Source: Bacteroidales bacterium
Lineage (GTDB): Bacteria > Bacteroidota > Bacteroidia > Bacteroidales > UBA932
NCBI GenBank assembly: GCA_017620335.1
Contig: JAFZQO010000014.1
Location: 1 to 57,973, forward strand
Reading direction: 5' to 3'
Length of the DNA stretch: 57,973 bases
Both the position numbers and the translations under genes were made by a program. Under the pieces are notes generated by a model. It did no database searches and was not told where the DNA came from. It was given only the letters and a program-made list of their open reading frames with translations. Shown here piece after piece: positions 1 to 3,540 of the stretch. The first letter of the stretch is position 1; each line of letters opens with the position of its first letter.

Positions 1-39
1 AGGAAGCTTATATATCTTGTAAGAACTGTCTTATGTCCT

Positions 40-74
40 GTTCGGGGCTCGTCTTGTGACCCGTTCGGGGCTCG
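40..74. repeat. Partial duplication of the tRNA-Lys T-arm
   Basis: The 12-mer GTTCGGGGCTCG occurs at 40-51 and again inside the tRNA at 63-74. A second 12-mer covering the tRNA 3' end, GTCTTGTGACCC, is at 51-62 and recurs at 1380-1391. Short copies of a tRNA 3' end are typical scars of elements that integrate at tRNA genes, but no integrase gene is present here. Confidence 0.5.
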
Positions 75-129
75 AACCCGAGACCCCAACATTAAAAGTG
101 TTGTGCTCTACCAACTGAGCTAACGAGTC
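57..129 (-). tRNA. tRNA-Lys (anticodon TTT)
   Basis: Read on the minus strand, this 73-nt stretch folds as a full cloverleaf. The 7-bp acceptor stem (GACTCGT with ACGGGTC, one G-T pair) has discriminator A. The D-arm reads AGCTCAGTTGGTAGAGC, the anticodon arm is CAACA-CTTTTAA-TGTTG and the T-arm has the GGTTCGAGCC core. The loop CTTTTAA gives anticodon TTT, hence lysine. The CCA end is not encoded. A strong promoter lies just upstream at 146-177. Confidence 0.96.
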
Positions 130-180: not shown

Positions 181-670
181 TTTTCATTTTTTTTATTATT
201 TCCCCTCCCCTCCCCGCCTCCGCACCTCTCCACTCCCCCTCCACACTCATTCCCTTGCATTTCCCCCCTGATTTCCCTCTTTTCCCTTTCCTATCTTTCT
301 CCCAACCCCATTCCCCCTTCCTCCTCTCCTCCCTTCCCCATGTCCGTCCTCATGTCCTTCCCCCACCCATTCTCCCCACCTCTCTCATCACCGCCCATTT
401 TCCCTTACACATCTCTCTTCCCCGTCCGTTCTCCTCACCCCATCCTCCGCCCACCGTACGTTCCTCCCATCATCCATTTTCCCTCCTCCCTCCTCCCCTT
501 CATTTATTCCAACCCCGTTCCTCCATCCTCCAGTTCTTTTGCTCTTCCACCATCCATTTCCCCTTCTCCTTTCCCCGTCCGTTCTCCCCCTTCTTACCCT
601 ACCCTCTCCGTCCGTTCTTCCCACCACATTCTGCCTTCTCCGTCCGTTCTCCCTAGCCCATCCTGCCTTA
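181..670. repeat. Left pyrimidine-rich array with GTCCGTT/GTACGTT heptamers
   Basis: This stretch is almost wholly C and T on the plus strand and holds no convincing gene; open frames here are low-complexity Pro/Ser/Phe strings. A short motif recurs at irregular spacing: GTCCGTTCTCC or GTCCGTTCTTCCC near 424, 575, 610, 642 and 673, and GTACGTTCC near 456. The same heptamer forms the stems of the adjoining hairpin module, so the array appears to consist of decayed or expanded module fragments. Confidence 0.75.
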
Positions 671-870
671 TCCGTCCGTTCTTCCCTTCCAATTAAGGCC
701 AATGCGTACGTCGTCCATTTTAGCAAAGGGGACAACGGACGGGCCGTTTTCTAAAAACGCCCTCTCATCCCCCTAGAAGGCCGTTTTCTTCGAATTGCCC
801 GTCCGTTGTTCAAACTCCTTTTTTGAACAACGGACGCCACTGGTCTTTCCATCGGGGAACAACGTACGCT
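671..870. repeat. Hairpin module A (left copy, 200 bp)
   Basis: This matches 3022-3221 over exactly 200 bp with 19 substitutions and no gaps by my hand alignment. It contains consecutive inverted repeats. The first pairs GTACGTCGTCC with GGACAACGGAC and has two mismatches. A near-palindrome with GTTTT/AAAAC arms lies around 744-760. A perfect 15-bp stem lies at 800-814/822-836. The module ends in GGGGAACAACGTACGCT, which again carries the heptamer in reverse. No coding capacity is evident. Confidence 0.88.
800..836. repeat. Perfect 15-bp hairpin H3 of module A
   Basis: The arm CGTCCGTTGTTCAAA (800-814) is exactly complementary to 822-836 across a 7-nt loop, CTCCTTT. The same stem is at 3151-3187 in module B without a single difference, although the loop differs at two positions and the flanks are diverged. 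There is no T-run, so it is not a typical terminator. Its size and symmetry resemble a REP-type hairpin, the usual substrate of RAYT transposases. Confidence 0.88.
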
Positions 871-1330
871 CACCACGAGGGCAGCGCGGTGGTCCGGACA
901 GGGACGGGGATGCGGGCACTGGGAGGCAGCAAGGGACGGAGGCACGGCAATCTGGGCTGAGACGGCGACGCAAGGGATGGGGACGGGGAGGCAGGGAGGC
1001 GGAAGGCGGGAGGCGGGGGTGGCGGCGCGGCGATCCGGACAGGGACGGGGATGCGGGCACTGGGAGGCAGCAAGGGACGGAGGCACGGCAATCTGGGCTG
1101 AGACGGCGACGCAGGGGATGGGGACGGAAGGCAGGGAGGCGGGAGGCGGGGGTGGCGGCGCGGCGATCCGGACAGGGACGGGGATGCGGGTACGGGGAGG
1201 CAGCACGGGACGACAGCGCGGCGGTCCGGACGGGGACGGAGGCCCAGGGACAGAGAGAACCAGTTCAGGAAAAAGAGGACGAAGACCCAGGGACAAAGCC
1301 AGAAACAACGAAACTGGATGGGAGTGTGCG
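871..1330. repeat. Left purine-rich array with about 135-bp tandem repeats
   Basis: This G/A-rich stretch carries a tandem repeat whose copies begin with GGGACGGGGATGCGGG at 901, 1042 and 1174, giving periods of 141 and 132 bp. The third copy is more diverged. Each unit contains GGACGG or GGGACGG, the reverse complement of part of the heptamer in the left array. Open frames on both strands are Arg/Gly- or Pro/Ser-rich low complexity and I do not accept them as genes. Confidence 0.75.
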
Positions 1331-1435
1331 CAAAGAACAATCAAAAATCCTTACAAAAACAGAAGAAACCTATAAAAAAGTCTTGTGACCCCTCAAAAAA
1401 GTATCTTATGATCTAACCCGAATTCGGCTATTGAT

Positions 1436-1443
1436 TATGTTTG
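1436..1443 (+). promoter_or_regulatory. Candidate -7 box of the RAYT gene
   Basis: TATGTTTG fits the Bacteroidetes -7 consensus TAnnTTTG and ends 10 nt before the ATG at 1454. There is no clear TTTG at the -33 distance. If used, the transcript would be leaderless or nearly so, which would keep expression low. Confidence 0.45.
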
Positions 1444-1453
1444 GAAAAAAGAT

Positions 1454-2389
1454 ATGGCTTTCAACAGAATTATCGAGATTAGGGACAACAATGGAAAGTG
1501 GATCAAAATGTATCCTTTCCATATCAGTTCGCCAGGGCTGGACAAGCTCATTTTCAAATCTGAAGAGGATTTGACCGTTGCATCTAATTTTATTATCATC
1601 CAAGCACTTAGGTTCGGGGTCCAGGTCATTGCTTTCGTTGTAATGAACAACCATCTGCATGTATTGATCCTTGCTCCGGACTACGATTCCGCACAAAAGT
1701 ACTCAGACGGGCTGAAACAAGTCCTGTCCCACTCCCTTTCTTTTAGGAACAAGGAGCATGAACATACTTTTTTGAATATCGACTTCAAACCTTTGCTCAT
1801 TCAGGACGACCATCATCTCCGCAACACAATTTGCTATATACCCCGGAACTCCCTGGACACTGGGATTCCAGTTGAAGAGTATAGCTGGTCCTCTTACCGG
1901 GCATATTTCCGCGGGGGAAAAATACCCGAATCCGCCATCAGAGTGAGCGACTTGCCTAAGAGACAGGTTCGGAGAATCCTCCGAACGGACATTGACCTTA
2001 GTCACACAGGCTGGTACATGAACCGGCAAGGAATGTTGGAACCAACGACGACCTGCAACTGGCGATATGCCGAATCGGCTTTCTACAATGACCTTTCATT
2101 TTTCGTCCGGGTAATGGGCGGAGTCAGGGATGAAGAAATGGAACAAATCAATGTGACCAACCGTTACAAAAAGCTGAACGACAGAGACTTTTTCAAGGTG
2201 GCCTCAAAACGGTCCCAGGAATTATTTAATTCGTCCTTTTCCGATCTTGTGATGGAACAAAGGATCCGGCTTCTAAAGATCCTGTATTATTCTTACTGCA
2301 CGACAGTCCCCCAACTCGCCCGTTGCATGTCCCTTCCAAAGGAACAAATTGCCAAAATATTGAGAGTAAAGTACATCGATAAAGAATAA
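1454..2389 (+). CDS. HUH/Y1 REP-associated tyrosine transposase (RAYT-like)
   Basis: A 311-residue protein of the IS200/RAYT Y1-transposase fold. The histidine pair that binds the metal is in MNNHLHVLI (H67 and H69). The likely nucleophile is Y128 in CYIPRNSLDTG, the counterpart of YIHxNPVRAG in the family, and it is followed by the family motif YSWSSYRAYF at about 143-152. Proteins of this kind nick and join single-stranded DNA at hairpins. The protein is longer than most RAYTs (often about 150-220 aa). The C-terminal 45 residues look like a helix-turn-helix (QLARCMSLPKEQIAKIL). No TnpB/IscB partner is present. The gene is visibly more AT-rich than its neighbours and sits alone between hairpin modules A and B. 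All catalytic residues are intact, so activity is plausible but not shown. Confidence 0.85.
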   Translation: MAFNRIIEIRDNNGKWIKMYPFHISSPGLDKLIFKSEEDLTVASNFIIIQALRFGVQVIAFVVMNNHLHVLILAPDYDSAQKYSDGLKQVLSHSLSFRNKEHEHTFLNIDFKPLLIQDDHHLRNTICYIPRNSLDTGIPVEEYSWSSYRAYFRGGKIPESAIRVSDLPKRQVRRILRTDIDLSHTGWYMNRQGMLEPTTTCNWRYAESAFYNDLSFFVRVMGGVRDEEMEQINVTNRYKKLNDRDFFKVASKRSQELFNSSFSDLVMEQRIRLLKILYYSYCTTVPQLARCMSLPKEQIAKILRVKYIDKE

Positions 2390-2464
2390 TATCTGTGAAT
2401 CATGCTCCACCTGGTCCCGCCAACAGCACATTCCTCAAACTAAACCAATTATGTGTTTCTGATC

Positions 2465-3021
2465 TTCTCCACCTCCGTCTGCATCCTACACCTCTCTTCC
2501 CTTCCTACTCCCCGTCCCGTCTCTCCATCTTCTCTTCCGTCCCGTTCTTTTCGCCGTACGTTCTTCCCACTCCATCCTGCCTCCTCCGTCCGTTCTCCCC
2601 CTATCTCATTCCACATTGCCATACATCTTTTTTTGCATGTCCCCTTTCCTCCCTTGTTTCTGGTTCAACCTCCTTTCACCGCCTATTCCCATTCCCCCTC
2701 TCTTTCCGCCGTCCGTTCTCCCCTTTTTATCCTGCCTCCTCCGTCCGTTCTTCTCATATCTCTTTCCACATTGCCATACATTTTTCCTTGCATGTCCCCT
2801 TTCCTTCCTTTTTCCGGCCCATCCTCCCTTCACCGCCTATTCCCCATTCGCCCTCTCTTTCCGCCGTCCGTTCTCCCCTTTTTATCCTACCTCCTCCGTC
2901 CGTTCTCCCCAACATTTCTCTCTTCAGCGTACGTTCTTCCCAGCCCATCCTACCTCCTCCGTCCGTTCTCCCCCAACATTTCTCTCTTCAGCGTACGTTC
3001 TTCCCAGCCCATCCTACCTCC
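2465..3021. repeat. Right pyrimidine-rich array with 155-bp and 63-bp tandem repeats
   Basis: The tract is C/T-rich on the plus strand. The phrase ATCCTGCCTCCTCCGTCC, or the same with ATCCTACC, starts at 2574, 2729, 2884, 2947 and 3011. The spacing is therefore 155, 155, 63 and 64 bp. The 155-bp units also share a less biased segment (TTCCACATTGCCATACAT). The 63-bp units carry both GTCCGTTCT and GTACGTTCTTCCC. Every unit contains at least one heptamer. No gene is recognised. Confidence 0.85.
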
Positions 3022-3221
3022 TCCGTCCGTTCTTCCCTTCCAATTAAGGCCAGTGCGTCCGTTGTCCATTTTAGCAACGGGGACAACGGACGGAGCGTTT
3101 TCTGAAAACGCCCTCCCATCCCCATAGAAGGCCTATTTCACTGAAATACCCGTCCGTTGTTCAAACTACTATTTTGAACAACGGACGCCACAGGTCTTTC
3201 CATCGGGGAACAACGTACGCT
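3022..3221. repeat. Hairpin module B (right copy, 200 bp)
   Basis: This is the second copy of the 200-bp module and the better-formed one. It holds four successive hairpins. H1 is a perfect 12-bp stem (3056-3067 with 3081-3092). H2 is GCGTTTTC-T-GAAAACGC (3095-3111). H2b is TATTTC-ACT-GAAATA (3134-3148). H3 is a perfect 15-bp stem (3151-3165 with 3173-3187). It ends with the same GGGGAACAACGTACGCT as module A. Both copies lie in the same orientation on either side of the transposase gene. Confidence 0.88.
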
Positions 3222-3540
3222 TTTCGCGGGGACGGGACGGGGAGACGGGACGGAGAGGCGGGGACGGAGAAAGGGAGGCAAGGACGCGAGGGCGGTACGG
3301 CAGTCCGGACGAAGGGGCGAGGACGGGGAGGAGAAAGGGAGAGGAGGAAGAGAGAGAACGGAAGGGAGAGGAGAAAGGGAGAGGACGGAAGGGAGAGGAC
3401 GGAAGGGAGAGGACGGAAGAGAGAGAACGGAAGGGAGAGGACGGAAGAGAGAGAACGGAAGGGAGAGGAGAAAGGGAGAGGACGGAAGGGAGAGGACGGA
3501 AGGGAGAGGACGGAAGGGAGGCAGAAGTGGGGAAAACAGA
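3222..3540. repeat. Right purine-rich array with 14-bp tandem repeats
   Basis: A G/A-only tract whose core (about 3354-3520) is a tandem array of GAGGACGGAAGGGA or variants such as GAGAACGGAAGGGA. Units start at 3381, 3395, 3409, 3423, 3437 and 3451, and continue after a 13-bp unit at 3465. The minus strand reads CCGTCC or CCGTTC, matching the pyrimidine arrays. A period of 14 cannot keep a reading frame, which argues against coding. Confidence 0.85.

Follow-up and report, generated by a model that had tools for sequence, protein, structure and literature searches.

Near the start of contig JAFZQO010000014.1 of a Bacteroidales bacterium (NCBI GenBank assembly GCA_017620335.1), a gene resembling those of REP-associated tyrosine transposases (RAYTs; REP, repetitive extragenic palindrome) lies between two hairpin-rich modules. 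We analysed positions 1 to 57,973 of this contig, hereafter the window, together with the remainder of the genome assembly (54 contigs, 96.6% complete) and a large set of related genomes. The central features of the locus are as follows.

1454-2389, plus strand: RAYT-like Y1/HUH transposase of 311 amino acids, with H67, H69, Y128 and N132, a WSSY motif, a long C-terminal extension and a weak helix-turn-helix (HTH)-like end
690-870, plus strand: upstream module, consisting of a palindrome doublet plus an outlying minus-strand arm at 857-868
705-741, plus strand: palindrome 1 of the upstream doublet, 37 nt, 9/11 outer pairs, with loop CATTTTAG, which is shared with relatives
800-836, plus strand: palindrome 2 of the upstream doublet, 37 nt, 15/15 pairs, 95 nt centre to centre
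3041-3221, plus strand: downstream module, consisting of a palindrome doublet plus an outlying minus-strand arm at 3208-3219
3056-3092, plus strand: palindrome 1 of the downstream doublet, 37 nt, 11/11 outer pairs
3151-3187, plus strand: palindrome 2 of the downstream doublet, 37 nt, 15/15 pairs, 95 nt centre to centre

A sequence-only reading of this DNA had described an intact HUH/Y1 transposase between two modules in the same orientation, and both observations hold. Across the 37 aligned members of the family H67, H69 and Y128 never vary, nor do N132, Y143, W145, F152 and E207, while the proline of the Y---NP signature is replaced by serine in the window RAYT and mostly by alanine in relatives. 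The NCBIfam model REP_Tyr_transpos matches the window open reading frame (ORF) at an E-value of 1.5e-8 and 34.7 bits, under its cutoff of 80, and Pfam Y1_Tnp matches at 21 bits, under its cutoff of 23; 18 of the 37 aligned members hit the NCBIfam RAYT model at an E of 1 or less. Matches to C-terminal HTH domains are weak and confined to a minority: HTH_PafC in 7/37 (best E 0.015), HTH_22 in 2/37 (0.0017) and CENP-B_N in 1/37 (0.00084). Searching solved structures returned matches only at E of at least 0.08, in which Y1 transposases were mixed with unrelated proteins, and a scan of viral contigs found no relative. No TnpB was present among the three large downstream ORFs scanned (carboxylesterase, GH9 and GH43), and no search for TnpB was made elsewhere. 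The genome holds nine RAYT matches, including the window gene; the other eight are at most 35% identical to it over the aligned part.

The two modules are 90% identical, and their likeness stretches to 292 bp at 84% when flanking DNA is included. Both fold as single-stranded DNA better than their shuffled counterparts (z -5.5 upstream and -6.9 downstream; 0/200 shuffles as low). The earlier proposal that a composite module of 200 bp is the functional unit did not survive, as each module resolves into two 37-nt palindromes in inverted arrangement, and this inverted doublet is the unit found across the genus. Three of the four window palindromes form all 11/11 outer pairs, the exception being 705-741. 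The window doublet is 132 nt long, compared with 112 nt at the commonest spacing among relatives. In the window, 24 copies of the arm 12-mer CGTMCGTTSTYC were counted against 0.04 expected; the rest of the genome has two (backward control, 3).

The repeat unit and its co-variation with the RAYT

Two collections of relatives were assembled. A protein search covered 200 genomes, 121 of the window's genus (its own included) and 79 others, and RAYT matches were found in 103/121 and 2/79 of them, respectively. A second collection came from a scan of named genomes, from which the best 80 of 149 relatives were kept; 79 of these are labelled Bacteroidales or Bacteroidia and one Fibrobacter, and many of the labels refer to samples from the ruminant gut. 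The locus set thus comprised 38 (L014-L051) plus 80, or 118 loci; comparison over the final 240 nt of the ORF left 105 distinct ones. Because both collections supplied best matches only (the best 80 in one), the sample is skewed towards closer relatives. The palindrome length scan used 109 loci under a looser filter, whereas the consensus, co-variation, small-gene and tree work used 108, with L057 dropped as a duplicate of L029 and a few cross-collection duplicates still inside. The Fibrobacter-labelled locus (L106) sits on a 4-kb contig of a metagenome-assembled genome (JAFVGH010000158.1), and its RAYT nests among those of Bacteroidales relatives in the tree, through either contamination or transfer.

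Palindrome windows in RAYT flanks peak at 35-37 nt (181 at 35 nt, 183 at 37 and 130 at 39, the different lengths being nested around shared centres); at 37 nt the controls gave 0 in one shuffle, 5 in ORFs and 14 in far DNA. The consensus is YGNNNNAGGTC-N15-GACCTNNNNCR, and the centre measured 15 nt in every match listed by the exact arm searches described below, although 13-17 nt was allowed. Motif palindromes are concentrated near the genes, with 241 in 261,564 nt of flank, 17 in 207,930 nt beyond 1.3 kb and 9 in 96,756 nt of ORF, and at least one lies within 1.3 kb of the RAYT at 92 of the 105 distinct loci. Read from the outside in, 111 unique doublets share YGNNNNAGGTC, a loop with ATTTT near its outer end, and GACCTNNNNCR; the doublets are inverted, since this loop mark stands near the outer end of both members. 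Among the 99 doublets near a RAYT, the spacing takes few values: 75 nt (60 doublets), 74 (10), 62 (10), 84 (6), 63 (5), 73 (4), 95 (3) and 72 (1).

Base frequencies outside and inside the 111 doublets gave no sign of a GT[AG]G tetranucleotide marking the hairpin foot, and the only preference outside them is for T at -3 to -1. The absence of a GTAG motif, already pointed out from the sequence, is therefore upheld, while the GTCCGTT then put forward as the core of the repeat is the arm of this one lineage. The more distant paralogs in the window's genome are mostly off the motif, with L045 and L047 having 37-nt palindromes of another interior. Designs seen at the paralogs L045, L047 and L050 include GGTCCA with a 5-nt loop and GGGAATGAAA.

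Arm sequence varies together with the protein. Arm distance and protein distance are correlated (Mantel r 0.57, with 0/2000 permutations as high; 95 of 108 loci), and the correlation persists when only distinct loci are used (r 0.57, 0/1000; 92 loci) and among pairs less than 60% identical (r 0.49, 0/2000). No region of the protein stands out in this co-variation. The best match of the window RAYT is L015 of genome G102, at 38% identity (the shorter L029 is equal in alignment). Apart from the window, L015 alone has doublets at 95 nt; of the 94 other loci it is also the nearest to the window in arm distance, and the tree places the two together (98/89), both being long branches that were flagged by the tree program.

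Phased single arms around the doublets

In the window, single copies of the palindrome arm extend beyond the doublets. The overall order is tRNA-Lys, pyrimidine-rich DNA, module 1, G-rich repeats, RAYT ORF, pyrimidine-rich DNA, module 2 and GA-rich repeats, and the features outside the modules are given below.

423-684, plus strand: upstream single-arm array, CT-rich, with arms at 423, 455, 576, 609, 641 and 673, mostly 32-33 nt apart with one gap, leading into the palindrome at 705
2555-3035, plus strand: downstream single-arm array of ten arms at 2555, 2587, 2710, 2742, 2865, 2897, 2928, 2960, 2992 and 3024, leading into the palindrome at 3056
880-1212, plus strand: G-rich 141-bp tandem repeat, 3' of the upstream module
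3231-3520, plus strand: GA-rich 13-14-bp tandem repeats, 3' of the downstream module
56-129, minus strand: tRNA-Lys gene, near the window start

The CT-rich DNA 5' of each module is thus built from single copies of the palindrome arm, spaced mostly by 31-33 nt and in register with the first palindrome. Within runs of the downstream array the arms are spaced by 31-32 nt, with higher-order repeats of 64 nt and 155 nt. In the GA-rich repeats the arm is matched weakly on the minus strand (2 mismatches of 12) at 3241, 3353, 3422 and 3450; at this tolerance, 34 arm matches were found in the window as compared with 15.5 in its shuffles.

Such outlying arms are also present in relatives. Of 224 doublet flanks, 64 have within 50 nt an extra copy of the outer arm that points at the doublet (no more than 1 mismatch in 9), against 5 flanks for the opposite orientation and 1.55 for shuffled flanks. 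The distance of this copy is 22 nt in 48 cases, 21 nt in 5, 32 nt in 3 (all in the window) and another value in 8, and further arms repeat at 44 and 66 nt. Runs of two or more arms, with 2 mismatches allowed, were seen in 34 flanks, the longest being the run of six in the window. Within 400 nt, 83 outlying arms sit at a multiple of 22 nt, give or take 1 nt, and 50 do not, 34 are reversed, and the regularity falls outward. Doublets away from any RAYT found carry an outlying arm in 22/44 flanks. On this evidence the outlying arms appear to be phased sites, on which a protein may sit.

Locus L043 has a CT-rich stretch with arm-like repeats similar to those of the window. CT-rich flanks were considered as a general feature of doublets and rejected: 10/230 doublet flanks reach at least 65% pyrimidine (39/4360 random windows do), and strong pyrimidine tracts are therefore a minority feature. 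The mean pyrimidine fraction is 0.518 in doublet flanks and 0.500 in random windows, with the L029/L057 locus counted twice. At the contig end, a 23-nt tandem duplication (window 28-50 and 51-73, 87% alike) takes in the 3' end of the tRNA-Lys gene and resembles an integration-site remnant.

Dispersal, locus gain or loss, and a coupled small gene

Exact arm searches were carried out in 120 genomes, 73 of the window's genus (its own included) and 47 others. Palindromes with the arm GGGGAAGGTC were found in 4 genomes and those with GGGCAAGGTC in 8, all within the genus, with a control of 0 and none in any of the 47 genomes of other genera. These two arm types occur in 12 of 60 RAYT-bearing genomes of the genus and in 0 of 13 that lack a RAYT. 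Genome G034 is the richest seen, with 25 exact palindromes, or 28 when up to 3 mismatches are tolerated (backward control 1), a search applied to six chosen genomes. These 28 make up 14 doublets with 75-nt spacing, spread over 11 contigs; one of the doublets stands beside L025, the RAYT of this genome with the same arm. G027 holds 14 exact palindromes, and in the window's own genome the arm of a sister RAYT (L044) is found in 9 palindromes, 5 of them away from L044.

The sequence-only reading had suggested looking for further copies of the window hairpin and module in the host and its relatives. The host yielded none beyond the two modules, either by DNA similarity or by the mismatch-tolerant palindrome search, whereas G102 holds 5 palindromes of the window type: four adjoin its RAYT, and the fifth, on a different contig, is accompanied by a partner (38 nt) and by two outlying arms with a 21-nt pitch. 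An intergenic preference of dispersed doublets was set aside, as a palindrome lies inside an ORF of at least 100 amino acids in 13 of 20 dispersed-doublet stretches under crude ORF calling. In G028, GGGGAAGG and CGCTGCAGG doublets stand side by side at L149 and L151, in a mosaic resembling bacterial interspersed mosaic elements (BIMEs).

One locus differs between two close genomes. In G047, an accessory gene and the RAYT L019 sit between doublets A and B. The flanks of this site are 88-92% identical in G023, where neither RAYT nor accessory gene was found at the site, and the G023 junction runs from palindrome A1 through a short gap into DNA that in G047 comes after palindrome B2. The junction could stem from excision or insertion, from arm-to-arm recombination or from an error in the assembly, which are indistinguishable here. 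When a dispersed G023 doublet was used as a query with its flanks, G047 was matched over the doublet only, and hence no empty site for a lone doublet was seen.

A gene for a protein of ~117 amino acids lies just upstream of the RAYT at 55 of the 108 loci (52 strong matches and 3 at E 0.003-0.007), and in 39 of these 55 its stop codon is 1-3 nt before the RAYT start used. Examples beside the RAYT are L023:1139-1489 and L065:2648-2995, with 53 further RAYT loci; G000:C44:37697-38032 is an example with no RAYT nearby. In the same search it was not found at the window, L015 or L044. Five of these proteins were scanned and had no Pfam match above cutoff and no NCBIfam match, and one searched in the PDB had no match. 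A search of 150 genomes found the protein in 21, in 23 rows, two of which (from G064) are outside the neighbourhood count. Nine rows are beside RAYTs matched in the protein search; of 12 further stretches, 4 are near a RAYT of another subfamily and 8 have no RAYT, one of these being at a contig end.

Interpretation and comparison with known systems

We consider it probable that the locus is a REPtron, that is, a RAYT gene between two copies of its own cognate repeat, here an inverted doublet of 37-nt palindromes. The intact HUH/Y1 residues, the flanking doublets, the co-variation of arm and RAYT, the dispersal in relatives and the gain or loss of a locus at a palindrome all support this. When the doublet is single-stranded, for example on the lagging-strand template, each palindrome would fold; the RAYT would recognise the outer arm of the folded palindrome, and Tyr128 would nick beside the hairpin. 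As has been proposed for REPINs (REP doublets forming hairpins), the doublet might from time to time be copied, or transferred in trans, to a new site. More tentatively, the protein may dock, perhaps through its HTH-like C-terminal part, on the outward single-arm arrays at helical pitch in their double-stranded form.

Several observations weigh against this interpretation. Motif palindromes are present on both sides of the RAYT at only 45/105 distinct loci (38/88 of those with full flanks) and absent at 13/105. The co-variation extends beyond any single region of the protein and can be explained by shared descent as well as by recognition. On the question, raised by the sequence-only reading, of whether repeat-rich genomes carry the RAYT, the contrast of 12/60 with 0/13 is only suggestive; of two RAYT-less genomes, G067 has one poor match (3 mismatches) inside an ORF and G100 has no palindrome at up to 3 mismatches. 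G008 and G028 hold GGGGAAGG doublets, and the two G028 RAYTs examined, from nine matches, carry other arms (the two matches of G008 were left out). The gain or loss junction could have arisen by ordinary recombination between arms. Finally, the window-type palindrome numbers 4 in the window's genome (up to 3 mismatches), none outside the two modules; the window's RAYT may therefore not be spreading now, or further copies may have been lost or be missing from the assembly. The proposal of a REP/RAYT-like system in Bacteroidales is supported by the flanking, co-varying and partly dispersed palindromes of relatives, while for the window's own RAYT the repeats are confined to the modules.

The single-arm arrays invite another, possible but less likely explanation, in which the locus is an iteron-plus-hairpin machine. 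The RAYT would dock on the double-stranded arrays, whose pitch is two or three helical turns, and nick the adjacent palindromes, an arrangement like that of a rolling-circle origin; the arrays would grow by repeated copying of half-palindromes, and the window would be the most expanded locus examined. Among the papers listed by a literature search, none on RAYTs mentions iterons.

It is rather unlikely that the locus is a relic or passive REPtron, whose modules stem from one local segmental duplication and have been kept paired but are no longer processed. The window palindrome has no dispersed copies in its genome, the likeness between modules takes in flanking array DNA, and the surrounding arrays are degenerate tandem repeats, all of which would suit such a relic. 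However, the ORF is intact with all invariant residues, the 11/11 outer pairs are kept in 3/4 window palindromes, and G102 retains doublets of the 95-nt design both upstream and downstream of its RAYT, together with one dispersed doublet.

It is improbable that the modules are the ends of an IS200/IS605-like insertion sequence that is mobile as a complete unit. The HUH/Y1 enzyme would suit this explanation, and the G047/G023 cassette, present in one close genome and absent from the other with a junction at a palindrome, would fit such movement. Nevertheless, none of the eight paralogs is a near copy within the window's genome, and in G034 and G047 it is doublets, not cassettes, that are dispersed. 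We regard as least probable of all that the hairpins are transcription terminators or RNA elements unlinked to the RAYT: they are strong and adjoin genes, and an Rfam search of the window gave two tRNAs only, which still leaves room for an undescribed RNA, yet fixed length, inverted pairs at fixed pitch, co-variation with the RAYT and one-way outlying arms would be unexpected.

Rolling-circle origins of HUH Rep proteins combine iterons with a nick hairpin. The window shares with them an HUH enzyme, a hairpin and adjacent direct repeats at helical pitch, but no replicon was identified here.

The sequence-only reading had also suggested a separate, undescribed class. Bacteroidetes RAYTs flanked by atypical non-GTAG structures, with copies elsewhere in the genome, have already been published as group 5 or subclass 2.6 (PMC6006769), and we therefore regard the present system as a variant and not a wholly new kind. 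As described there, subclass 2.6 shares with the window RAYT a Bacteroidetes host, the NH[LIV]H motif and two paired serines following the core (WSSY in the window). It differs in median length (179 amino acids vs 311), in the distance from H to Y (median 82, with a 21-amino acid insert, vs ~60 from H67 to Y128), in the Y motif (YIH[QN]NP vs YIPRNS in the window and mostly YIPRNA in relatives) and in a weaker structure of the repeats, whereas the palindromes here are strong (PMC6006769). By this published description the window RAYT appears to lie outside subclass 2.6, although some overlap with the 2.6 sequences is possible.

The long protein, its C-terminal extension and the non-GTAG repeats at the gene are shared with the terminal inverted repeat-associated tyrosine transposases (TIRYTs), or subclass 2.1 (PMC3733652, PMC6006769). 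Subclass 2.1 is reported there to lack REP-like structures (PMC6006769), which are present here; many terminal inverted repeats of TIRYTs have GGGGWSAS in common (PMC3733652); and the C-terminal HTH described as typical of that group has only weak similarity here. Three of the four window palindromes start with CGTC, in which they resemble CGTC-tagged REPs, and the fourth with CGTA, but CGTC here is part of one lineage's arm; the CGTC repeats were described in that source without association to transposase genes (PMC3733652).

There is also a resemblance to REPINs and REPtrons, in which, as published, an inverted pair of palindromes is dispersed and specific to the RAYT gene that it flanks (PMC6006769, PMC8266576). 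Inverted doublets of this type are found in the window and its relatives, dispersed in some of the latter and confined to their own locus for the window type in its genome. Unlike REPINs, the palindromes are 37 nt long without GTAG, the doublets have a few fixed pitches, and single-arm arrays lie outside them; with the arms searched, copy number reaches 28 in the richest genome seen. No RAYT description in the literature searched includes outlying arm arrays or a coupled small protein like that of many relatives. The system seems to work like a RAYT/REPIN system and, as far as sequence features allow comparison, did not fit any of the published subclasses compared. New findings of this analysis are the single-arm copies outside doublets, the gain or loss of a locus at a palindrome, and the coupled small gene of relatives. 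Recognition between RAYT and repeat has been dissected in a few pairs, among them three, from E. coli, S. maltophilia and Marinomonas, in one paper (PMC8266576). Here, a single genus offers dozens of naturally matched RAYT/palindrome pairs within a 37-nt frame that has a few variable arm positions, and the rules of recognition and the movement of the repeats are therefore directly testable.

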